Part shown: in pieces, positions 107-10,383 of the stretch | How the letters are laid out: each line of letters opens with the position of its first letter | Numbering within the stretch: position 1 is the stretch's first letter | From: Schleiferiaceae bacterium | GTDB taxonomy: Bacteria; Bacteroidota; Bacteroidia; Flavobacteriales; Schleiferiaceae | Length of the DNA: 64,000 bases | Direction: 5' to 3' | NCBI GenBank assembly: GCA_029254375.1 | Contig: JAQWXR010000001.1 | Span: 1-64,000 of the forward strand | Notes under the pieces: generated by a model | The model's database searches: none | The model's input: only the letters and a program-made list of their open reading frames with translations | Told to the model about the DNA's origin: nothing | Made by a program: the position numbers and the translations under genes

Positions 107-135
107 AGCCGCCTCAGAATTGAGGCGGCTTTTTT
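107..135 (+). terminator. intrinsic terminator
   Basis: A perfect 10-bp stem (AGCCGCCTCA / TGAGGCGGCT) with a 4-nt GAAT loop is followed by a run of T. It would end transcription from the left. The T run touches the stop codon of the reverse-strand regulator at 134, so the hairpin also lies just downstream of that gene, but there is no T run in that direction. Confidence 0.85.
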
Positions 136-1594
136 ATATGAGTTCCGAATTACGCAAGAGTTTGGCTATTTGTGAAATCTTTAATGGAATCTGGGAATGA
201 TGTAGGCAGGTGAATGACATAATTAGGCCCTGCTTTGCAGAATCCTCATACATGTAACATTTACTTAGGGCATGGGTATTAATACCATTCTCTGCGAGCA
301 ATCTTGAAGCGGTTAAATCCCAATCTTTTATTGAGCCATGATAATAAGCAATTGTATTCATGGTCTTCGGAAAAGGTGGGAGTGGAAGTTCTGGCAGTAA
401 GGAGGTCCAGCTTTTTGAAAAGACATCCCAACGTTTTCCGTGATGCTTCCGAACTTCGTGAATGTGGTTTCTCAGAAGTCCATTCCGGATAAATTCGTCC
501 ATGACAACTTGAATGGAAGAGGGAACAGATCGATGGGATTGTGATGTGAAGGCACGAACAGGTTCTATAAGAGATTTGGGCACGATCATAAAAGCTAAGC
601 GTATAGATGGATGAAGTATCCGATTAAATGTGCTCAAGTAAATTACCCGTCCTTCCTTGTCAAGGCTGAATAAACTTTGCGAATCATCGTATTCTTTCGT
701 CAAGTCATGTTCAAAATCATTTTCTATGATGATGGACTTTTTTAAATTCGGAGAATTGAGTAACAATTCCTTTCTATCTCTAGTTAAAATGGTTTCATCC
801 GGATAACGAGTGGTTGCCGTGACATGGATTAGCTTAACTGGTTTCTTTTGGCTTATAACAGTGTCTAAAGAGGAAATTTCGGCTTGTAGACCACTGAATA
901 TGGCCAAAACATTTGGAAAAGATGGGATTTGTATAGCAACTGGATCCCCAGGATTGATGAGTATGCTTCCTGTAATAAAGAGGGATTGGACAGACCCGGA
1001 AACGACAATTATTTGCTCTGGTGAGCATTGTATGCCTCGATTGATGGAAAGATGCATTGAAAGTGCTTCCCGAAATTGCTCTAACCCGAAGGAGCTACTA
1101 TAGGTGAGACCAGAGTTTTGCACATTTCGCCAGTACTTATTCAACAGGCTTTTCCACTTGTTGACAGGGAACAGGTCAAGTGGTGGAATCCCAGGCTGAA
1201 AAGCATATGCCCCAGACTTCATGGGATTAGTTTTTTTAAAACTTTTCAGAAAAGAAATACCCGAGGTGGAAAGTTCAATTGAATGGAGCTGGGGCGTCTT
1301 GGCAAGCGGGTAGATTCTATTTGAAACAAAATAACCAGATCCCTTTCTTGAATTGGTAAAGCCTTGGTTTGAGAGTAATTCATAGGCTCTGATCACGGTA
1401 CTTCTTGATAGACCTAGTGATTCCGATAACTTCCTGCTTGGGGGAAGTGTGGTTTGACCTGTTAAGACTCCTGATTGGATCAGGTGCTTGAATATCTCAA
1501 ACAGTCGAATATAACTGGGATTTCTTTTTACACCAATTGTATCAGGTTTTATATTCCATTGCTGCTGGATCAAATCTAGGATATCAGTTTTCAT
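134..1594 (-). CDS. MocR/GabR-like transcriptional regulator with degenerate PLP site
   Basis: The protein has 486 residues: an N-terminal GntR winged helix (about 25-95, with SRKLSESLGLSRSTVIRAYE typical of the family) joined to a fold-type I aminotransferase-like domain (about 125-480). MocR proteins usually bind PLP through a lysine in a TFSK motif; here the equivalent is TFNR, with Arg325. Aligning with GabR from memory, the pyridine-binding Asp and the Tyr of EDDYD are also changed, to Asn292 and Phe294. The regulator therefore probably senses something without forming a Schiff base, or is constitutive. It is transcribed divergently from the peptide-scavenging run at 1696-10383 and is its likely regulator. 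Family assignment is firm; loss of PLP binding is inferred from the residues. Confidence 0.88.
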   Translation of the reverse strand: MKTDILDLIQQQWNIKPDTIGVKRNPSYIRLFEIFKHLIQSGVLTGQTTLPPSRKLSESLGLSRSTVIRAYELLSNQGFTNSRKGSGYFVSNRIYPLAKTPQLHSIELSTSGISFLKSFKKTNPMKSGAYAFQPGIPPLDLFPVNKWKSLLNKYWRNVQNSGLTYSSSFGLEQFREALSMHLSINRGIQCSPEQIIVVSGSVQSLFITGSILINPGDPVAIQIPSFPNVLAIFSGLQAEISSLDTVISQKKPVKLIHVTATTRYPDETILTRDRKELLLNSPNLKKSIIIENDFEHDLTKEYDDSQSLFSLDKEGRVIYLSTFNRILHPSIRLAFMIVPKSLIEPVRAFTSQSHRSVPSSIQVVMDEFIRNGLLRNHIHEVRKHHGKRWDVFSKSWTSLLPELPLPPFPKTMNTIAYYHGSIKDWDLTASRLLAENGINTHALSKCYMYEDSAKQGLIMSFTCLHHSQIPLKISQIAKLLRNSELI

Positions 1595-1605
1595 CTGAAA
1601 AATAA

Positions 1606-1672
1606 TTGGTAGGTATAAAGAAAAAAAATTGGTATGAAATGTACATGGAAATTTTCAAATCTTTACATGTAA
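1606..1672. promoter_or_regulatory. candidate operator region between the MocR-like gene and its divergent run
   Basis: Two direct copies of TTGGTA (1606-1611 and 1629-1634) lie 23 bp apart, about two helical turns. Direct repeats of the TGGTAT/ATACCA type are known operators for MocR proteins such as GabR. Two perfect palindromes follow: ATGTACAT at 1640-1647 and TTACATGTAA at 1663-1672. A TACATTTC reading leftwards (1636-1643) could be the regulator's own -7 box, which would place the direct repeats in its leader. Binding is inferred, not shown. Confidence 0.45.
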
Positions 1673-1695
1673 CTATATATGAAAAAAAGTAAGTA

Positions 1696-2865
1696 ATGAA
1701 AAAGTATCTACCCTTCCTTTTATCCTTTTGCTTTGTTTCTACTCCGTTGACCGCGCAGCTGAGCCTTCGGGGAATCCTGGATTTGGATTTACCTTCGGCG
1801 GGAGCAGCTGGTAAGGCTATTCATGTTCATGCAGACTCGGCTATTTCGGATTTAAGCAGGTATGGAATCGGCGTAGCAAATAATGGTGGTGGATCAGATG
1901 GCTTGGAATATGTTTTTCCGGCGATTTCACTTCAGGCAGGTGATGATGTTCTAATAGCTAGGGATTCTAGCGCCATGTCCAGCTATTTTGCAGGTTGTTT
2001 TAGCCAGTTTGAATTTGTCCTGACGGCAAATAATTCCATCTCCCAGAATGGGGACGATGCGATCGAGCTTTATAAGGACTCGAGCGTAGTAGAAGTTTTT
2101 GGGGATGTCAATGTGGATGGATCAGGAACGTTTTGGGAGTATTCAGATTCTTGGGCATTCAAAGACACCTTGGGCCTCACATGGCCAAATGGATGGATCT
2201 ATGGGGGGGTGGGATGCACCGTCGGTGATTCCTTAGTGTCAGCATCACTTTGCCCGTATCCTGAGTGCCTCAATGTTTTACTGCTTCATGATGTTACGTT
2301 TAGAGTAGATATGAATGAGTATGCAGGGTCTTTTACGACCCCAGAGGTAAATGGTACGTTTAATGGATGGTGTGGAAATTGTGCCGCAATGACCGATTCT
2401 GATGGGGATAATGTGTGGGAAATCACTTTAGCCCTTGAAGATGGCGTTGGGGTTGAATATAAATTCTCCTATGATAATTGGACTGGTCAAGAGGCAAATG
2501 ACCCTGCTTCACCTTGTACTAATGGTAACAGCACGTTTACAAATAGAGTTCTGACACCAGCTTCAGATACGGTTTTGGCACCCGTATGTTGGGGTTCTTG
2601 CGATGAGTGCTCAGGAATTGGCTTGTTAGACAGTGAATTAGGTTTAAAGGTTTATCCGAATCCAGCAAATTCGTATACAATACTTTTCACTACCCTTCAA
2701 AGTGCATCGTATTCTCTTCTAAACGCCATGGGGCAAACCATTCATGGTGGTACGATTCATTACGGAGAGAATTTCGTAGATTTTACGAGGTTGACTCCGG
2801 GCTTATACTTTATTGAAGTTAAGTCGAATGAGTATTCTGAGATTTTGAAAGTTATCCGTCAATAG
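1696..2865 (+). CDS. secreted protein with lamin-tail-like and CBM-like domains and T9SS sorting tail
   Basis: The protein has 389 residues. A signal peptide (MKKYLPFLLSFCFVSTPLTA) leads into a lamin-tail-like beta domain (about 30-150), then a segment resembling starch/glycogen-binding modules (about 200-280; EVNGTFNGWCG, then YKFSYDNWTG). The C-terminal 75 residues match a type IX secretion sorting domain (KVYPNPA, then LTPGLYFIEVK). It is likely exported across the outer membrane and attached to the surface or released. It is first in the run divergent from the MocR-like regulator. Ligand unknown; the CBM resemblance is by motif only. Confidence 0.75.
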   Translation: MKKYLPFLLSFCFVSTPLTAQLSLRGILDLDLPSAGAAGKAIHVHADSAISDLSRYGIGVANNGGGSDGLEYVFPAISLQAGDDVLIARDSSAMSSYFAGCFSQFEFVLTANNSISQNGDDAIELYKDSSVVEVFGDVNVDGSGTFWEYSDSWAFKDTLGLTWPNGWIYGGVGCTVGDSLVSASLCPYPECLNVLLLHDVTFRVDMNEYAGSFTTPEVNGTFNGWCGNCAAMTDSDGDNVWEITLALEDGVGVEYKFSYDNWTGQEANDPASPCTNGNSTFTNRVLTPASDTVLAPVCWGSCDECSGIGLLDSELGLKVYPNPANSYTILFTTLQSASYSLLNAMGQTIHGGTIHYGENFVDFTRLTPGLYFIEVKSNEYSEILKVIRQ

Positions 2866-2873
2866 TAGGATCA

Positions 2874-3821
2874 ATGCGTATCATTAAGACTTCACATCTT
2901 TGCAGTTTAGCCGCGATTTCGCTGTTAATTTCTGGATGTCATACCGAAGATGTGCCGCTTAGGCCGTCGGTAACTTTTTCAGCCTCTCCTATTGTGATTT
3001 CAGAGGATAATGGTGTAGCAACTTTGGAATTAATCCTCAGTGAAGCATTAACTGAAACCTTGATAGCACAACTTAATATTGGAGGTTCGGCAGTGAAAGA
3101 TGAAGATTATGCACTTTCTAGTGAGGTGTTAGTTATTCAGCCTGGCGAGCTCAAAGGTACTGTGACCATTGCGGCACTTCAAGATCTGGAACAGGAGGAA
3201 AATGAAGAAATTACGCTAGAATTAGTCGAGAGCACGTCCTTCATTAATTTAACGCCTGGGGTATTGAGTATCCTGATTGAAGATGATGATTCCCCTTCGT
3301 CTGGGTCGCTGCTTATTTTGAATGAAGTGCTTTACGACCCGTCCAATAATGGCCTAAATGGCGATGCAAACGGTGATGGAGTGTATGTTCAAGATGAGGA
3401 TGAGTTCATAGAATTTGTTAATCTTAGTGCTACTACCATGGACCTTTCCGGATATAAGGTTTTCGACGCGACAGCATTGGGATCGAATACCCCTCGTCAT
3501 GTATTCCCTACTGGTTCTATTCTGAGTCCTGGAAAAGCGTTGATTTTATTTGGGGGGGGTACTCCATCTGGGTCTTTTGGGAATGCTCTTGTGCAAGTAG
3601 CTTCGAGCGGGGCGATTAACATGAACAATGCCGGAGATTTCATTACGCTTAGAGATGATCTTGATTCTACATTTTTAGAATTTGACATCACTCCACTTTC
3701 GGATAATCCAAATGAATCGTATACCCGGAATCCGGATCTTACAGGATCATTTGAACAACATAGTGCAGTGAATGGATTGCTTTTCACCCCGGGAACTAAG
3801 GTAGATGGTTCGCCATTTTAA
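2874..3821 (+). CDS. lipoprotein with Calx-beta and lamin-tail domains
   Basis: The protein has 315 residues. The N-terminus has a lipoprotein signal with lipobox LLISGC. Residues of about 35-140 look like a Calx-beta domain (VISEDNGVATLELILSEAL, ending IEDDD), a Ca2+-binding beta fold common in surface proteins. Residues of about 145-310 look like a lamin-tail domain (LILNEVLYDP, then EFIEFVNLS and DLSGYKV). It starts 8 nt after the preceding gene and is surely co-transcribed. It probably sits on the outer membrane as a surface adhesin or binding protein. No enzymatic motif was seen. Confidence 0.72.
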   Translation: MRIIKTSHLCSLAAISLLISGCHTEDVPLRPSVTFSASPIVISEDNGVATLELILSEALTETLIAQLNIGGSAVKDEDYALSSEVLVIQPGELKGTVTIAALQDLEQEENEEITLELVESTSFINLTPGVLSILIEDDDSPSSGSLLILNEVLYDPSNNGLNGDANGDGVYVQDEDEFIEFVNLSATTMDLSGYKVFDATALGSNTPRHVFPTGSILSPGKALILFGGGTPSGSFGNALVQVASSGAINMNNAGDFITLRDDLDSTFLEFDITPLSDNPNESYTRNPDLTGSFEQHSAVNGLLFTPGTKVDGSPF

Positions 3822-3840
3822 GCACCTAAAGTTCTGAGGT

Positions 3841-5196
3841 ATGCACATAGTTTGGATTTTTCTCGCCCTATTGGTCACAGGGATTTCGTTATACAAGAAA
3901 TGGCAAACCCAATGGGTGCTGTTTTTGGTTGGTTTTGGTATGATTTGCCTCGCCGAGTTCTTTGGACTAGGCTTTTTAAAGGAAGAGACTTCAGCCAATG
4001 GGGCGCCACTCCTCAATGCTCTTCATAGAACAGTCGGTCAATTTGAATCAACACTAGGAAGTGTGGGATTGATGATTATGAGCATAGGAGGTTTCGTGAC
4101 GTATTGTGACAACATCGGCGCCTCCCAAAAACTAGTTCAGATATCCTTGAACTTGCTGAATAAGTTAAAACTGCCTTCCTCATTTTTTGCCATTCTAGTT
4201 TTACCTCTAGGTCAGATCTTGTTTGTCTGTATACCATCAGCTGCTGGATTTGCATGTCTATTGATGGCTTCCGTGTTTCCCGTTCTTGTTGGCATGGGCG
4301 TGAACAGAGCCGCCGCGGCAGCCATAATTACTGGAACGACCGCATTTGGAATTGGTCCCGCCTCGGCCATTACAAATAGCGCAGCGACTATCATTGGCAT
4401 TCCAGTAGTTGACTACTTTATAAATGTTCAGCTCTCTGTTATGTGGGCAATGATGGCGGTGACTATGGTTCTCTATGCGGTCTCTAATAGGATTTTTGAC
4501 CGCATGCCCATAGACTATCCAGGAGTCGCTTCAAAGATGGAGCAGGATATGGAGCAAGTGCCATCTTATTTAGCGGTTCTCCCTATCCTTCCAATTTTAT
4601 TACTCACATCCGTTTACTTGAGTTCATCATTGCTTAACATACCCATGGAATTGTCAACCTCTGAGGCAATGATAGCAAGCATGATTTTGGCCTTCTTCGC
4701 ACGTTCAATAGGCTCTTTATCTTTATCCAAAAGCTTTGCTGAACTGTCCAACTTTTGGGTGGGAATGGGAGATATTTTTAAAAATGTGGTCACCTTGGTG
4801 ATGGCAGCGGAAATTTTTGCCAAGGGATTGATTTCCCTTGGGTTTATACAAATGCTAGTGGATAGTATGAATGCGCTTGGTCTAGGGTCAGTGGCTGTTC
4901 TTATTGTGTTTACAATTCTAATCTTCTTGGCATCCATTTTAATGGGTAGCGGTAATGCTGCATTTTTTTCTTTTGCACCCACGGTCCCAAAAATTGCATC
5001 AGAATTTGGATTAGAAGGAACGAAATTGATCCTGCCTATGAATTTAGGAGCATCGATGGGAAGAACGATCTCTCCAATTTCTGGGGTGCTCATTGCGGTT
5101 TCAACCATTGCCCAGGTACCCGTGTTTGAAATTTTAAAGCGCAATCTACTGCCGATGATAGGCGCGTTGATATTTATTCTAATCTATTCGGCATAA
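3841..5196 (+). CDS. DcuC-family C4-dicarboxylate-type transporter
   Basis: The protein has 451 residues, about a dozen hydrophobic segments, and follows the E. coli DcuC pattern throughout: GLMIMSIGGFVTYCDNIGAS near the first third and MGSGNAAFFSFAPTVPKI and NLGASMGRTISPISGV in the C-terminal half. DcuC-type carriers move succinate, fumarate or aspartate-like dicarboxylates across the inner membrane. Sitting 10 nt upstream of isoaspartyl dipeptidase, it may import beta-aspartyl dipeptides or exchange aspartate or its products. The family is clear; the substrate is inference. Confidence 0.85.
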   Translation: MHIVWIFLALLVTGISLYKKWQTQWVLFLVGFGMICLAEFFGLGFLKEETSANGAPLLNALHRTVGQFESTLGSVGLMIMSIGGFVTYCDNIGASQKLVQISLNLLNKLKLPSSFFAILVLPLGQILFVCIPSAAGFACLLMASVFPVLVGMGVNRAAAAAIITGTTAFGIGPASAITNSAATIIGIPVVDYFINVQLSVMWAMMAVTMVLYAVSNRIFDRMPIDYPGVASKMEQDMEQVPSYLAVLPILPILLLTSVYLSSSLLNIPMELSTSEAMIASMILAFFARSIGSLSLSKSFAELSNFWVGMGDIFKNVVTLVMAAEIFAKGLISLGFIQMLVDSMNALGLGSVAVLIVFTILIFLASILMGSGNAAFFSFAPTVPKIASEFGLEGTKLILPMNLGASMGRTISPISGVLIAVSTIAQVPVFEILKRNLLPMIGALIFILIYSA

Positions 5197-5206
5197 TTGC
5201 ATTCGT

Positions 5207-6316
5207 ATGAGGCTACTGAAAAATTTCCATGTATTCGCGCCAAAAGATCTTGGATTTGTGGATATTCTTGTTGCTCATGGCAAGGTGTTGTGTGTGGAAG
5301 AAAATTTAAACATTACCGGCATTCCTAACCTGGAGGTTGTTGATGGAGAGGGGGCGATTATCACCCCTGGGTTTATTGACCAACATATTCATCTTATAGG
5401 CGCAGGAGGGAAAAGAGGCTTTTCAAGTTTGACAAGGGAGCTAGAGATAACGGATTTATGGCGCGTTGGAACAACAACAGCGGTGGGTTTATTGGGGACT
5501 GATGGTGCTACGCGGAATCCTAAAAGTCTATACTCCAAAGTAAAGGCATTCGATGAGCAGGGCCTATCTGCATTTATGCATACAGGGTATTACGGTTTGG
5601 ATCCATGTTTTATAACCGACAGTGCTCAAAATGACCTCATATTCATCGACAAGGTTATTGGTTCGAAAGTGGCTATTTCCGATATAAGATCTTCGTTTCC
5701 AACAGATAACGAATTGTTGAAGCGTTGGCGAGAAGTTTACGTCGGAGGTATGGTTAGTGGTAAAAAAGGAGTGTTGCATGTCCACTTGGGCCCAGCAAAA
5801 GAGCATTTAGATCCTTTATTTCGAATGGTTAAAGACTTTGATGTGCCAATTTCATCCTTGTCACCAACGCATGTGGCGCGTTCAAAGGAATTATTCGAAG
5901 AGGCGATTTTATTTGCCAAGCTCGGCGGCTCCATTGACATTACCACAGGGGCATCGAAATTCACAGAACCACATCTAGCTGTTTACTGCGCAGTCGAAGA
6001 AGGTGTTCCCATTACTCAAATTACATTTTCAACCGATGGAAATGCTGGATTGGATGCAAAAGATGTTCATGGTAATGTGATCGGAACCAAATCTGCTCCC
6101 ATTGAAGCAAACCTGAGTTCTATTCGGGCCTTGTTAACAGATCGAATTATTGAGACTGAACAAGCTCTTTCTCTTGTAACCGTTAATGTGGCGAATCATT
6201 TAAACTTGAAAGGGAAAGGTAGAGTATCTAATGGCTATGATGCAGATTTCTGTGTTTTTGATGACCAATGGAACCTTAAAGATGTATACACTAAGGGTAT
6301 TTCAAGATGGATGTAA
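5207..6316 (+). CDS. iadA: isoaspartyl dipeptidase (beta-aspartyl peptidase)
   Basis: The protein has 369 residues and is an amidohydrolase-superfamily enzyme that aligns with E. coli IadA along its length. The binuclear metal site appears intact: His60 and His62 (DQHIH), Lys154 (carboxylated Lys in KVAISD), His193, His222 (PTHV) and Asp277 (STDGN). IadA cleaves beta-Asp-X dipeptides, which arise from isoaspartyl-damaged proteins and from cyanophycin (beta-Asp-Arg). No signal peptide, so cytoplasmic. Its stop overlaps the start of the porin gene by 10 bp, showing tight coupling. Slightly shorter than E. coli IadA (390). Confidence 0.93.
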   Translation: MRLLKNFHVFAPKDLGFVDILVAHGKVLCVEENLNITGIPNLEVVDGEGAIITPGFIDQHIHLIGAGGKRGFSSLTRELEITDLWRVGTTTAVGLLGTDGATRNPKSLYSKVKAFDEQGLSAFMHTGYYGLDPCFITDSAQNDLIFIDKVIGSKVAISDIRSSFPTDNELLKRWREVYVGGMVSGKKGVLHVHLGPAKEHLDPLFRMVKDFDVPISSLSPTHVARSKELFEEAILFAKLGGSIDITTGASKFTEPHLAVYCAVEEGVPITQITFSTDGNAGLDAKDVHGNVIGTKSAPIEANLSSIRALLTDRIIETEQALSLVTVNVANHLNLKGKGRVSNGYDADFCVFDDQWNLKDVYTKGISRWM

Positions 6317-7623
6317 AAGTTGTTTTTCTAGCGCTACTAATTGCATGCACTGGGACATCCCTTCAAGCGCAATTGGATGAAGATGAATGGGGTTTGACCA
6401 ATTCCTATGATTTTGGAGAGGGTTGGATAATCAAAGGAAACAACGTCGCTACGGAAATAACGGGAATGTTTCAACCTCAATTTGAGTGGAAGCATTATGG
6501 CGATAAAATCGAATTTCAAGATGTTTTTCGCTCAAGAATTCGACGTTTTCGTCTTCGGTTTAATGGACAATATGAGCCTGCACGTCTTTTTTATCGCGTT
6601 CAATATGATTTTGGAGGAGTTCCTGAAATTGATAACGGTGAGTTGATTAGAATTTCCCAAGCTTACATAGGGACTAGAATAGGACGAAGGGCGCGAATCA
6701 TTATTGGGCAGAGGGCTTCCCCTGCAAATAATCGTGAACTTTTTATGAACTCGGGAACCCTTCAGCTTGTTGAGCGCAGTAGAGTTACTAGTGCATTTGC
6801 CAGCTTGGCTGAATTTGGTGTTTTTTTTGAAAATACATGGAGGTTGTCCAGTACCAACTACATCCGGGGCTATACGAGCATAACCACTGGAGATGGAGCT
6901 TTTCCTATCAAGCCTGACTTTGGTGGATTTAAATACAGTGCTCGATTAGATTATTTGCCATTTGGTCTGTTCACGAGGTACGGTCAGTTTAGGCAAGTGG
7001 ATATGGTTCGAGAACTAACTCCTAAGCTAATAATTGGAGCCTTCTTGAGTCAAAATCAAGGAGTTAGTAGTCGAAGAGGAAGGACCCAAGGATCGATATT
7101 GTATTTAGATTCCGCATTTAATACTCTTTTGCCCAATTATTCTCAAATGGGCATTGATTTCATGTTCAAATACAGAGGCTTTTCAATGATAGGTGAGTGG
7201 GTGCGTGGAGGGGCAAGCGTACCTGATGGTATTCTCTATCGAGTGAGAACCGATGGTTCGATAAGTACAGATTTTCTTGTAAATGATCTTCAAAATATGC
7301 CGGATTACGTCAAATCGAGGATGATGCTAGGCAATGGGTACAATCTGCAAGCTGGATTCCTGACGAAAAAAGGAATCTCATTTGATGGGAGATATTCGCA
7401 TTTAGTGGCTGACCCGTTTTCATTTTTGACGAATGGGACATTCTACAATAGACCTTCATTTTACACCTTAGGTATGTCAAAATACATGACGAGATGGTAT
7501 GGAATGAAAATCCAAGGATCTGTCACAATGAATACGGTCGCACCTGGCGCAAATTCTCCAGGCAATGATCTATTGACCAAGCCTGAGTGGACGTATCGTT
7601 TAATTACAAGCTTTCTATTTTGA
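6307..7623 (+). CDS. porin of the OprO/OprP-like family, copy 1
   Basis: The protein has 438 residues with a signal peptide (VVFLALLIACTGTSLQAQ). The mature part is built of alternating aromatic beta strands and ends in Phe, as expected for an outer-membrane barrel; motifs such as RFRLRFNGQYE and GQRASPANNREL fit the phosphate-selective porin O/P family. It overlaps iadA by 10 bp and ends in the peptidase gene start. In this run it is likely a diffusion channel for a small anionic substrate such as aspartyl peptides; that substrate is inferred from context. A paralogue lies at 9157-10383. Confidence 0.82.
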   Translation: MDVKVVFLALLIACTGTSLQAQLDEDEWGLTNSYDFGEGWIIKGNNVATEITGMFQPQFEWKHYGDKIEFQDVFRSRIRRFRLRFNGQYEPARLFYRVQYDFGGVPEIDNGELIRISQAYIGTRIGRRARIIIGQRASPANNRELFMNSGTLQLVERSRVTSAFASLAEFGVFFENTWRLSSTNYIRGYTSITTGDGAFPIKPDFGGFKYSARLDYLPFGLFTRYGQFRQVDMVRELTPKLIIGAFLSQNQGVSSRRGRTQGSILYLDSAFNTLLPNYSQMGIDFMFKYRGFSMIGEWVRGGASVPDGILYRVRTDGSISTDFLVNDLQNMPDYVKSRMMLGNGYNLQAGFLTKKGISFDGRYSHLVADPFSFLTNGTFYNRPSFYTLGMSKYMTRWYGMKIQGSVTMNTVAPGANSPGNDLLTKPEWTYRLITSFLF

Positions 7624-9170
7624 AGAACTCGTTATTAATCGGTTTTATTCTCGTCGCAATTTCTTCAGGATTTGACCTTGAAAAGGGTTTTAATCCGCAG
7701 ACAAAAGAAATTACAACTCGCTTTTTTTCTGATCCACTAATTGATATCCCCACACCCGCATTTCAGAAAAAGAAGGGAGCGAGCACCTATGGTGAAGTCA
7801 TAGAATTTATTCAGAACACGGTCGAATCACACCGCGAATACGCGGAGTTAGCTTCCTTGGGAACTAGTCAGAAGGGGCTGAATATTCCTATTATTTTTCT
7901 TCGAAGTCCCACCGCTAAAAACCCACTGAGAATTTGGTTTCAAGGGGGATTACATGGGGATGAGATAGGGAGTGTTGAGTCTATGCTCTTCCTCCTTCAT
8001 GAATTACTCACTGACTCTGTTCATTTGCTTGAGCAGGCGGAATTCGCCATTGTGCCAGTAGCTAATCCGGACGGATTTTCAAAGGAAGATAGATTTTCAG
8101 CAAATGGACTAGATCTCAATAGAGATCAAACAAAAATGCTCGCGCCCGAGACTGAATTTTTAAAGGATGCATTCCATTCTTTTGCCCCTGAAATAGCTGT
8201 TGACTTTCATGAGTATAGACCTTATCGTAAAGATTATGTGAATTATGGAAGAGCTGGAATCACGTCCCCATATGATGCAATGTTTCTGCACACATCTAAT
8301 GAAAATGTCCCAGAAGATCTTCGAAAGATGATTCATCGGCAATTTGTGCTACCCGCAATGGATAAGATGGAAGAGGCGGGCTATAGAACAAGCGGTTATT
8401 TCAGCACCGTAGATATCCAAGGGAAAACGCATTTCCGATTGGGAAGCGCCAGCGCAAGATCAACGTCTACCTCTTATGCGCTAAGTAATACAATATCGTC
8501 ACTTATTGAGATTAGAGGGGTGGGTATAAGCACCACCTCATTAAAGCGACGAGTGCATTCTGCTTTTTTAATTGGCATGTCATACATCCATGAGGGAATT
8601 CGACTTGGTAAGGGTCTCAAAGAATTTTTGCATGAAAGGGCTGCTATAGAAAAGGCTACTGTGTTAGTGAGCTATAATCGACGAATGGACACCTTGCGAT
8701 TTATTGATCTGGATAAGGTAGAAGTTCAAGATTTCTATTTACCTATTCAGGATCTTAGCCGACAATCAGTTGACATATCACGCGTGCTCCCTCAAGCCTA
8801 TTTGATTCTTGGGAAAGATATAAAGGAAGTCGAAAGCCGCTTGAATCTATTGAATATCCAATGTTCTCGCAAGCAGCTCTCCGAGCTGCCTATCGAGCGA
8901 CTTAGAGCTTATGCCGTGGATAATTACAGAATGGATGGTACCCTTTATGAAGGTTCAAAAATGCAGAATTTAACCTGCCATCTAGAGCCACTAGATGCCA
9001 AAGAATATTCCGTGAAACAAGAGGTTTTATTTATTCCTGTAGATCAACCAAGAATGGGGCATTTGGTAGAATTATTAGAGCCAGATGCACCAAATAGTTT
9101 GTTTTCGTTCAGCATTATTCAATTAACTGCCTCCAAAACCATTAATATTTTACGTTATGAAAAAGGTTAG
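7620..9170 (+). CDS. secreted M14-family zinc carboxypeptidase
   Basis: The protein has 516 residues from a TTG at 7620 that overlaps the porin stop (TTGA). This start gives a clean signal peptide (MKNSLLIGFILVAISSG); an upstream ATG at 7587 would add 11 residues inside the porin gene. The M14 site is complete: zinc ligands His112 and Glu115 (HGDE) and His197 (DFHEY), Arg168 in LDLNRD, and a catalytic Glu near 297 (LIEIRG). About 200 further residues follow, without a recognised domain. It likely trims peptides in the periplasm or outside the cell, feeding the porins, carrier and IadA. Confidence 0.85.
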   Translation: MKNSLLIGFILVAISSGFDLEKGFNPQTKEITTRFFSDPLIDIPTPAFQKKKGASTYGEVIEFIQNTVESHREYAELASLGTSQKGLNIPIIFLRSPTAKNPLRIWFQGGLHGDEIGSVESMLFLLHELLTDSVHLLEQAEFAIVPVANPDGFSKEDRFSANGLDLNRDQTKMLAPETEFLKDAFHSFAPEIAVDFHEYRPYRKDYVNYGRAGITSPYDAMFLHTSNENVPEDLRKMIHRQFVLPAMDKMEEAGYRTSGYFSTVDIQGKTHFRLGSASARSTSTSYALSNTISSLIEIRGVGISTTSLKRRVHSAFLIGMSYIHEGIRLGKGLKEFLHERAAIEKATVLVSYNRRMDTLRFIDLDKVEVQDFYLPIQDLSRQSVDISRVLPQAYLILGKDIKEVESRLNLLNIQCSRKQLSELPIERLRAYAVDNYRMDGTLYEGSKMQNLTCHLEPLDAKEYSVKQEVLFIPVDQPRMGHLVELLEPDAPNSLFSFSIIQLTASKTINILRYEKG

Positions 9171-10383
9171 TAAGAAATTCTTCATGCCTTGCCTATTTGG
9201 ACTTTACGCATTGACAATTCCCCAAAAATCCGAAGCCCAAAGTAGCAGCCAAGTGGCCTTAGGTTCGGGGTTAACACTAACGTCAGACGATGACGAGTAT
9301 TCGTTTTCAATTTCTGGAACAGTTCAACCATTTATGTCCATAGCGAGCACTTCATCTAATAGAGATATCGCCCTCTATCCAGGGCTGACCATTATGAGAA
9401 TTCAGGCTACTGCCTTGTCAGAAAAGGTGACGTTATTCACTCAAATGAATTTCTCAGATGGTTCGCCGTTATTAGATGGTTTTCTGTCTTTTCGAGCCTC
9501 AAAACGCACTCGATTTTCGGTGGGTCAGCGCCCTAATGTTGGGAATAATCGCGAGATGCAATTCTATGAAGATCAATTGGCGTTTGTGAATCGCAGCAGT
9601 ATCAGTACAACGTTCTCCAAATCGGGTAGAGAATTTGGACTTCAGGCTATTCACCATTTTACCCTGGGAAATGTAATTGTAGAGCCGATGTGGTCGGTGA
9701 CGTCAGGAGATGGTCGCAACTCCTTCGGTATAGATTCGCGAGATGTGGATCTGGGTGGGTTGAAATATGCAGGCCGAATAGATTTGTATCCGCTTGGAGA
9801 ATTCTCCAAAGGAAATGATGTGGGAACCACAGATCTTGTAGGGGAGGAATCCCTAAAGTTTGTTTTAGGCCTTTCTGGCAGTTATAATCAAGGGGCTTCA
9901 GATAGAGTAGGTGAAGGGCATGGCGAAATTTTTTTCTACGACGCCTCAGGGAAACCAGCCTATCCAGATTTTCGTAAATGGAGTGCAGATGTACTTATGA
10001 AGTATCGGGGTTTCTCACTATTGACGGAGGTGGTTCAAACGACTGCCACTAATTTGCTTGAACTAAGAACAACCCCCTTGCCAACATCTGCTTTAATGCC
10101 CACAATGATAAGTAATTACCTAGTCTTGGGCACAGGCTATCATGCCCTAGCTGAATATCGTAAGGGCGATCACTGGGGCGTCCAAGGGAGGTATTCAATC
10201 ATATATGCTGAATTTGAGGAAAATGCACAGAGTCTAATTCACACCAATGCAACCTGGACTGGAGGAATCACCTATTATTTAATGGGAAATGATGCAAAGA
10301 TTCACCTGGAGGTAGGTAAAACTTTAGATGTCCTTCGAACTAGTCAAACGGTTTTGCAAGCGGTCATGCAAATTAGATTCTAA
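9157..10383 (+). CDS. porin of the OprO/OprP-like family, copy 2
   Basis: The protein has 408 residues with a signal peptide and a C-terminal RF, as in outer-membrane barrels. It is a paralogue of the porin at 6307: compare GQRPNVGNNREM with GQRASPANNREL, and LGGLKYAGRIDLYPLG with FGGFKYSARLDYLPFG. It overlaps the peptidase gene by 14 bp. It is last in the run; no terminator hairpin was seen after it. Two diverged porins around one peptidase suggest two substrates, for example peptide and free product. Substrate unproven. Confidence 0.82.
   Translation: MKKVSKKFFMPCLFGLYALTIPQKSEAQSSSQVALGSGLTLTSDDDEYSFSISGTVQPFMSIASTSSNRDIALYPGLTIMRIQATALSEKVTLFTQMNFSDGSPLLDGFLSFRASKRTRFSVGQRPNVGNNREMQFYEDQLAFVNRSSISTTFSKSGREFGLQAIHHFTLGNVIVEPMWSVTSGDGRNSFGIDSRDVDLGGLKYAGRIDLYPLGEFSKGNDVGTTDLVGEESLKFVLGLSGSYNQGASDRVGEGHGEIFFYDASGKPAYPDFRKWSADVLMKYRGFSLLTEVVQTTATNLLELRTTPLPTSALMPTMISNYLVLGTGYHALAEYRKGDHWGVQGRYSIIYAEFEENAQSLIHTNATWTGGITYYLMGNDAKIHLEVGKTLDVLRTSQTVLQAVMQIRF

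Follow-up and report, generated by a model that had tools for sequence, protein, structure and literature searches.

The DNA analysed here, hereafter the window, is the first 64,000 nucleotides of contig JAQWXR010000001.1 (assembly GCA_029254375.1) from a Schleiferiaceae bacterium, a member of the Bacteroidota. At positions 134–10383 it carries a cassette of seven co-directional genes and one divergent gene for a MocR-like regulator. We propose that the cassette is one half of a regulon that probably serves to depolymerize and import an extracellular polyanion. The other half, on a separate contig, includes a homologue of the poly(aspartic acid) hydrolase PahZ1. All eight open reading frames (ORFs) were verified; the features of the locus are as follows, where PLP is pyridoxal phosphate, T9SS the type IX secretion system and LTD the lamin-tail domain.

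134–1594, minus strand: MocR-like regulator; Arg325 (codon 620–622, ORF numbering) stands at the position of the PLP-binding Lys of GabR and EnuR.
1606–1634, plus strand: likely operator TTGGTA-N17-TTGGTA, a 23-bp direct repeat in the divergent promoter.
1696–2865, plus strand: secreted T9SS-sorted surface protein (TIGR04183/PF18962) with a putative binding role.
2874–3821, plus strand: Calx-beta and LTD protein by domain matches, with a lipobox-like start and a putative surface role.
3841–5196, plus strand: DcuC-family C4-dicarboxylate carrier (NF037994 and TIGR00771 above cut-off).
5207–6316, plus strand: IadA-family zinc amidohydrolase in which Lys69 (codon 5411–5413) replaces the amine-binding Glu77 of Escherichia coli IadA.
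6307–7623, plus strand: outer-membrane porin 1 (Porin1), Arg-rich, with an OprP-like fold in a structure model.
7587–9170, plus strand: exported enzyme of the M14 zinc carboxypeptidase fold, with an invariant His123/Glu126 zinc motif, Asn178-Arg179, His208 and Glu308, whose roles are assigned by analogy.
9157–10383, plus strand: outer-membrane porin 2 (Porin2), a distant relative of porin 1 by sequence comparison and conserved position.

Successive gaps in the plus-strand run (1696–10383) are 8, 19, 10, –10, –37 and –14 bp, and the regulator gene lies opposite across an intergenic region of 101 bp. These measurements agree with a preliminary description of the locus, made from the sequence alone, which had described co-directional genes that overlap or lie at most 19 bp apart. 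Family models also match its domain assignments: DcuC (NF037994 from NCBIfam, 305 bits against a cut-off of 100), IadA (TIGR01975, 348.2 bits against a cut-off of 331.25, over the full length), M14 (PF00246, E = 4.7e-16), and a GntR winged helix and a fold-type-I aminotransferase domain in the MocR-like protein, for which PdxR and MocR are the top NCBIfam models, yet score under their cut-offs. All eight ORFs are present at its coordinates; its title does not name the T9SS-sorted and Calx-beta/lamin-tail genes. It also missed the other half of the regulon, because that half lies on another contig.

The cassette genes are one conserved unit. A search of 88 genomes of the same GTDB family gave 14 IadA matches above cut-off, our genome included; there are two more full-length copies (G087, G050), and in G011 the gene is divided between two contigs. 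Each of the 15 full-length relatives has DcuC upstream of IadA and Porin1 downstream (tblastn, 4-kb pieces), and most of these pieces reach, at their edge, the last part of the LTD protein or the first part of M14. Wider family regions keep the order LTD/T9SS, LTD lipoprotein, DcuC, IadA, Porin1, M14, Porin2, interrupted only at contig ends; the two front genes (1696–2865 and 2874–3821) belong to this conserved set. Porin2 of G087 was not among the initial ORF calls and was recovered by a profile scan of the same contig (L065). The MocR-like gene adjoins or lies near the cassette in most family genomes, is on another contig in some, and was not found in four.

For the phylum, we scanned a named genome collection with an IadA alignment and took the best 80 of 129 loci, which are biased towards the cassette type because the search motifs came from cassette-type IadA; at least 11 of the 80 are on the same contigs as the GTDB-family members. 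Counting only loci with enough flank, DcuC is directly upstream of IadA in 75 of 75 named Bacteroidota loci and M14 is downstream in 68 of 68, while Porin1 is present in 71 of 74, Porin2 in 58 of 61, and an LTD protein upstream of DcuC in 65 of 72. Where both flanks are full (44 loci), the MocR-like gene occurs in 38, a PahZ1-like hydrolase in 35, a DASS carrier in 28, and a DASS or DctA-like carrier in 33. By record title, the carriers of the cassette include Flavobacterium, Tenacibaculum, Winogradskyella, Mesonia, Sinomicrobium, Cytophagaceae, Sphingobacteriaceae and Bacteroidales; cultured species with the cassette are Tenacibaculum adriaticum DSM 18961, Flavobacterium rakeshii, Winogradskyella aurantia and Flaviramulus basaltis, among others. 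The preliminary description had given scattering of the genes in relatives as a ground for refutation, and this was not seen: the order is kept around every full-length family IadA and in the named loci. A less biased sample of 395 Bacteroidota genomes has 10 with a strong IadA match (our genome included). IadA with Lys at the Glu77 position (K-type) adjoins DcuC and Porin1 in all three other loci of that sample; IadA with Glu there (E-type) does so in none of six, within 1.5 kb on each side.

The composition of the cassette varies in a few loci. Three Bacteroidales loci (L100, L125, L127) have DcuC, IadA and M14, lack both porins, and have a large TonB-receptor-like (SusC-like) and a SusD-like protein nearby; one of each was confirmed by Pfam. 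Two loci, L087 (Flavobacterium tistrianum) and L114 (F. daemonense), have a clear DcuC and IadA, with porins and M14 scoring far below those of other loci, and form a divergent subtype. The locus L036/L115 (G034) has an enlarged set of T9SS/LTD proteins upstream of the cassette (572–6723 of L036), one of them with a DUF4886 (SGNH-like) domain. Porin1 of L094 is broken into two ORFs, by a frameshift or a sequencing error.

Clustering of neighbouring genes revealed a lipoprotein alpha/beta-hydrolase in 49 of the 80 loci and a DASS symporter in 36. These genes mostly form an operon that includes the MocR-like gene or faces it. Ser206, Asp274 and His329, a Ser-Asp-His triad, are invariant in the hydrolase profile (18 sequences). 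Against PDB at E ≤ 0.01, this profile has three matches only: 6ve6 (5.8e-82), 9o7u (3.4e-80) and LpqC (7.7e-57). The first two are both poly(aspartic acid) hydrolase-1 (PahZ1). The Pedobacter KP-2 enzyme cuts beta- but not alpha-amide bonds, requires a trimer, leaves dimers and resembles polyhydroxybutyrate depolymerases (PMC4456602). Our genome has its PahZ1 homologue on contig C49, beside a DASS carrier. We searched 80 of the 88 family genomes, 17 with the cassette and 63 others, for both genes. A PahZ1-like gene is in 17 of the 17 K-type IadA genomes versus 3 of 63 others (G020, G040, G051; Fisher 1e-14), and the MocR-like gene is in 13 of 17 versus 1 of 63 (G020; Fisher 1e-10), with neither value corrected for kinship.

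A shared operator links the two halves. In 47 promoters between a MocR-like gene and its divergent neighbour, ATACCA/TGGTAT occurs 73 times versus 4.9 expected from a simple block shuffle, and the TGGTAT motif is present in 43 of the 47. Same-strand pairs of TTGGTA have a spacing of 23 bp 43 times, in 31 of the 80 loci, and every other spacing at most three times; five of the 43 pairs are inside called ORFs. Our genome has exactly two perfect copies of TTGGTA-N17-TTGGTA. One is in the window promoter (C18:1606–1634). The other, unlinked to the window (C49:81073–81101), is upstream of the PahZ1-like/DASS operon and opposite a T9SS gene. About 0.24 perfect copies would be expected, as computed from the 152 sites with at most two mismatches; only the perfect sites are informative, because the total of 152 equals that of the control (153). 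In its longest called form, the ORF of the PahZ1-like gene contains the second site, but the gene more likely starts further in, just before the lipoprotein signal. Fifteen relatives have 10 perfect 30-bp operator copies, of which nine are, by coordinates, at cassette, MocR or PahZ1 promoters; the remaining one (G036:C2:713) is away from such promoters, and several relatives have no perfect site.

What does the regulon act on? The preliminary description proposed beta-aspartyl dipeptides, with IadA as the enzyme that splits them; this substrate, and cyanophycin in particular, is not supported. We aligned 84 cassette IadAs to E. coli IadA, with an E-type set of six (E. coli and five Bacteroidota) for comparison. 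Position 77 is Lys in 83 of the 84 and Thr in one (L088); Glu77 is kept in all six non-cassette IadAs, and a partial IadA left out of the alignment (L136) also has Glu there. The metal ligands and Asp285 (H68, H70, K162, H201, H230 and D285) are identical in 84 of 84, and Thr106, Arg169 and Arg233 are retained. Further changes are Ser289 to Gly, Gly74 to Ala and Gly288 to Ala (each 84 of 84), Ala136 to Tyr (82 of 84) and Tyr137 to Phe (20 of 84). The cassette-type IadAs form a single clade (support 0.87, quick FastTree run). In the Colwellia enzyme, E80 (equivalent to E. coli Glu77) and T109 contact the substrate amine, and E80Q has no activity (PMC5517026). Another report assigns the main chain of S289 to the Asp side (PMC7774594). 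We do not class the window IadA as a functional isoaspartyl dipeptidase, because it lacks Glu77, and names assigned automatically, such as “beta-aspartyl-peptidase”, may be incorrect throughout the clade.

The regulator has a similar alteration. In an alignment with GabR, the MocR-like protein has TFNR in place of the TF(S/T)K of GabR and EnuR, and all 50 copies, the window copy included, carry Arg where the PLP lysine would stand (48 by motif, two from sequence). It lacks, therefore, the Schiff-base lysine of the MocR/GabR family (Lys302 of EnuR). That lysine binds PLP in EnuR, and a Lys302His protein cannot bind PLP and represses constitutively (PMC8739950). The changes at IadA Glu77 and at the MocR PLP lysine would both remove recognition of an amine, and may point to a ligand without one.

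The M14 model (predicted local distance difference test, pLDDT, 81.5; predicted template modelling score, pTM, 0.83) resembles the metallocarboxypeptidases CPO, CPB and CPA over residues 34–345, with a root-mean-square deviation of 2.6–2.7 over about 250 residues; human carboxypeptidase O is in the top row (Z 28.0), tied with others. All 13 sequences compared share its zinc and Asn-Arg motifs. Counting from the catalytic Glu would make Arg291 a candidate S1' residue for acidic side chains, an assignment that we do not claim. Carboxypeptidases can act on esters, and M14 could trim units with a free alpha-carboxylate. The preliminary description called both porins OprO/P-type. Neither matches any Pfam (E 0.01, including Porin_O_P), NCBIfam or PHROG model, and the Porin1 sequence found nothing in PDB. 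The Porin1 structure model (pLDDT 80, pTM 0.77) has OprP as its top PDB match (E 2.4e-12, TM-score 0.59), with chitoporin, OprO (TM-score 0.54), OmpU and DcaP close behind, and six Arg between positions 75 and 84 are invariant. A PDB search with the DcuC sequence found antibody chains only, which we take as chance. DctA/GltP-like carriers occur in 10 of the 80 loci and SGNH-like (DUF4886) proteins in eight. The envelope path of the preliminary description, from outer-membrane porins through exported M14 and inner-membrane DcuC to cytosolic IadA, is retained, now as a conserved unit linked to MocR.

Set beside the observed synteny, co-occurrence, shared operator and residue changes, we infer every catalytic and transport step as follows. 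LTD/T9SS surface proteins would hold the polymer, and the lipoprotein homologous to PahZ1, a putative serine hydrolase, would cut it endo-wise to short oligomers. Two anion-type porins, or SusC/SusD in some Bacteroidales, would pass these through the outer membrane, and the exported M14 enzyme would trim units bearing a free alpha-carboxylate. Import of monomers and dimers would fall to DcuC and DASS (or DctA) carriers, the Lys69 variant of IadA would split dimers in the cytosol, and the MocR-like protein, predicted to be unable to hold PLP through a lysine, would sense a product. We consider it probable that a MocR-controlled regulon, with the cassette as one half, depolymerizes and imports an extracellular beta-linked C4-diacid polyanion; this confidence covers the polymer and the regulon, not the identity of the unit as malate. 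For the unit, malate, with ester bonds and no amine, is somewhat more likely than aspartate. Poly-beta-malate or malyl oligomers take the largest share of our expectation, a little under half; a beta-aspartyl polymer takes just under a third, and another C4-diacid conjugate or something else about a quarter. The full version of the malate reading is one we hold tentatively: the cassette and its partner would form a poly-beta-malate locus, a beta-aspartyl system converted to the oxygen analogue, in which IadA has become a beta-malyl-malate esterase and MocR senses malate or malyl oligomers without PLP, and the PahZ1 enzymes would be natural polymalate depolymerases whose poly(aspartic acid) activity is a by-product.

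Several points weigh against this interpretation. M14 enzymes are usually peptidases, and PahZ1 has been characterized on beta-amides, not on polymalate. The named loci are a biased sample, as described above; within about 9 kb, PahZ1 was not found in 9 and MocR in 6 of the 44 full loci, and MocR is missing in 4 of the 17 cassette genomes. Lys69 could tolerate beta-Asp or bind otherwise, and the enzyme FiBAP binds the N-blocked substrate Cbz-beta-Asp-Leu (PMC7774594). The one polymalate hydrolase purified from Comamonas is reported to lack serine- or metallo-esterase activity (PMC9210645). A Microvirga ossetica plasmid (L152, 2462–10314) has a PahZ1 homologue alongside an M20 peptidase and the genes of an oligopeptide ABC transporter, a peptide-like setting, and this run is possibly an alphaproteobacterial counterpart of the regulon; among the six of nine records examined for PahZ1 context on proteobacterial and cyanobacterial plasmids, only Microvirga had an informative operon. 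The confidence we give to the regulon and the division of substrates take account of the Comamonas enzyme and the Microvirga setting, which count against the proposal.

The alternative that survives best is the use of beta-aspartyl polymers or oligopeptides, in which PahZ1 would cut beta-Asp chains, M14 would trim them, IadA would split beta-Asp-Asp despite Lys69, and DcuC, DASS and DctA would carry aspartate. It is possible, though we doubt it. We know of no natural beta-polyaspartate. Of the 84 cassette IadAs, 83 have lost the Glu that contacts the amine and all have lost Ser289 on the beta-Asp side, and the regulator is without the amine-reacting PLP lysine. Nonetheless, the IadA family score is above cut-off, DctA/GltP-like carriers are present, and transporter and M20 genes lie beside the Microvirga homologue. 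Of the enzymes, PahZ1 acts on beta-Asp trimers and longer chains and leaves dimers (PMC4456602), and the inactivity of Colwellia IadA E80Q argues the other way (PMC5517026).

It is less likely that the substrate is not a homopolymer but another C4-diacid conjugate (N-acyl, citryl-, sulfo- or malyl esters of algal metabolites). The DcuC/DASS carriers, the alpha/beta-hydrolase and the SGNH-like proteins would suit such compounds, and an additional anionic group might be the partner of Lys69. However, PahZ1, by far the closest solved relative of the hydrolase, acts on a beta-linked polymer, and the replacement of porins by SusC/SusD in three Bacteroidales loci suggests oligomers.

Scavenging of cyanophycin or beta-Asp-Arg with an external cyanophycinase, a substrate that the preliminary description had in mind, is very unlikely. 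IadA and an M14/AspA-like protein are present, and reported systems include proteobacterial M14 enzymes that hydrolyse cyanophycin dipeptides, gene clusters for cyanophycin scavenging that contain a cyanophycinase, and a cyanophycin locus of Bacteroidetes (PMC10206079). In our genome, the only cyanophycinase match is a 20.5-bit fragment on another contig, in line with the earlier statement that the window has none. A cyanophycinase is above cut-off in only 4 of the 17 cassette genomes (G003, G034, G035, G036), always away from the cassette; no match was found on the cassette contig stretches and none among the cassette genes. The partner is PahZ1-like instead, and Arg-rich porins would suit anions rather than beta-Asp-Arg. 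On the cyanophycinase search and the Glu77 to Lys change, we reject cyanophycin as the main substrate. Least probable of all is a housekeeping role, in which isoaspartyl peptides of damaged proteins are cleared and the porins and carriers serve general nutrient uptake. Clearing such peptides is the known role of IadA (PMC10206079), but a regulon so tightly conserved, which includes surface proteins, porins and a depolymerase homologue, is out of proportion to it, and Glu77 is changed.

Described systems resemble the regulon in part. The PahZ1 enzymes of Sphingomonas KT-1 and Pedobacter KP-2, the latter also in the Bacteroidota, match the regulon lipoprotein at E < 1e-79 with the triad kept. 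They differ in being described, in the part of the source considered, as single enzymes on a synthetic polymer, without a locus, operator or uptake system (PMC4456602). The cyanophycin-utilization locus of Ben Hania et al., as cited in PMC10206079, likewise serves scavenging in Bacteroidota and combines iadA with a carrier; our set lacks cyanophycinase, has the other IadA type, and has porins, PahZ1 and MocR. E. coli yjiH-yjiG-iadA also places an IadA-family gene beside membrane proteins, but with Glu77 and Gate-family neighbours, and without a neighbouring porin, M14, DcuC or depolymerase. Similar in plan are SusC/SusD loci, with surface proteins, depolymerase, outer-membrane import, exo-enzyme, carrier and regulator; SusC and SusD replace the porins in the three Bacteroidales loci. 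The present set differs in not being for carbohydrate and in having porins and T9SS/LTD proteins in most members.

In the open literature searched, we found neither this gene set nor any polymalate or polyaspartate locus described, and the literature examined contained no statement on the natural substrate or gene context of PahZ1. If our proposal is correct, it provides a natural role for PahZ1 enzymes, hitherto characterized mainly as degraders of a synthetic polymer. In many Bacteroidota, the regulon associates a PahZ1 homologue with an altered IadA, a carboxypeptidase, porins and carriers, and it yields a short list of candidate substrates. It also offers two coordinated losses of amine recognition, at IadA Glu77 and the MocR PLP lysine, and an example of a MocR-family regulator that lacks this lysine, with the operator that it probably uses.

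A scan for promoters and terminators gave about as many sites as in shuffled sequences and was not used. Two terminator-like hairpins, each followed by a run of T, lie at the edge of the contig (29–52 and 107–130 of the window), immediately downstream of the gene for the MocR-like protein.

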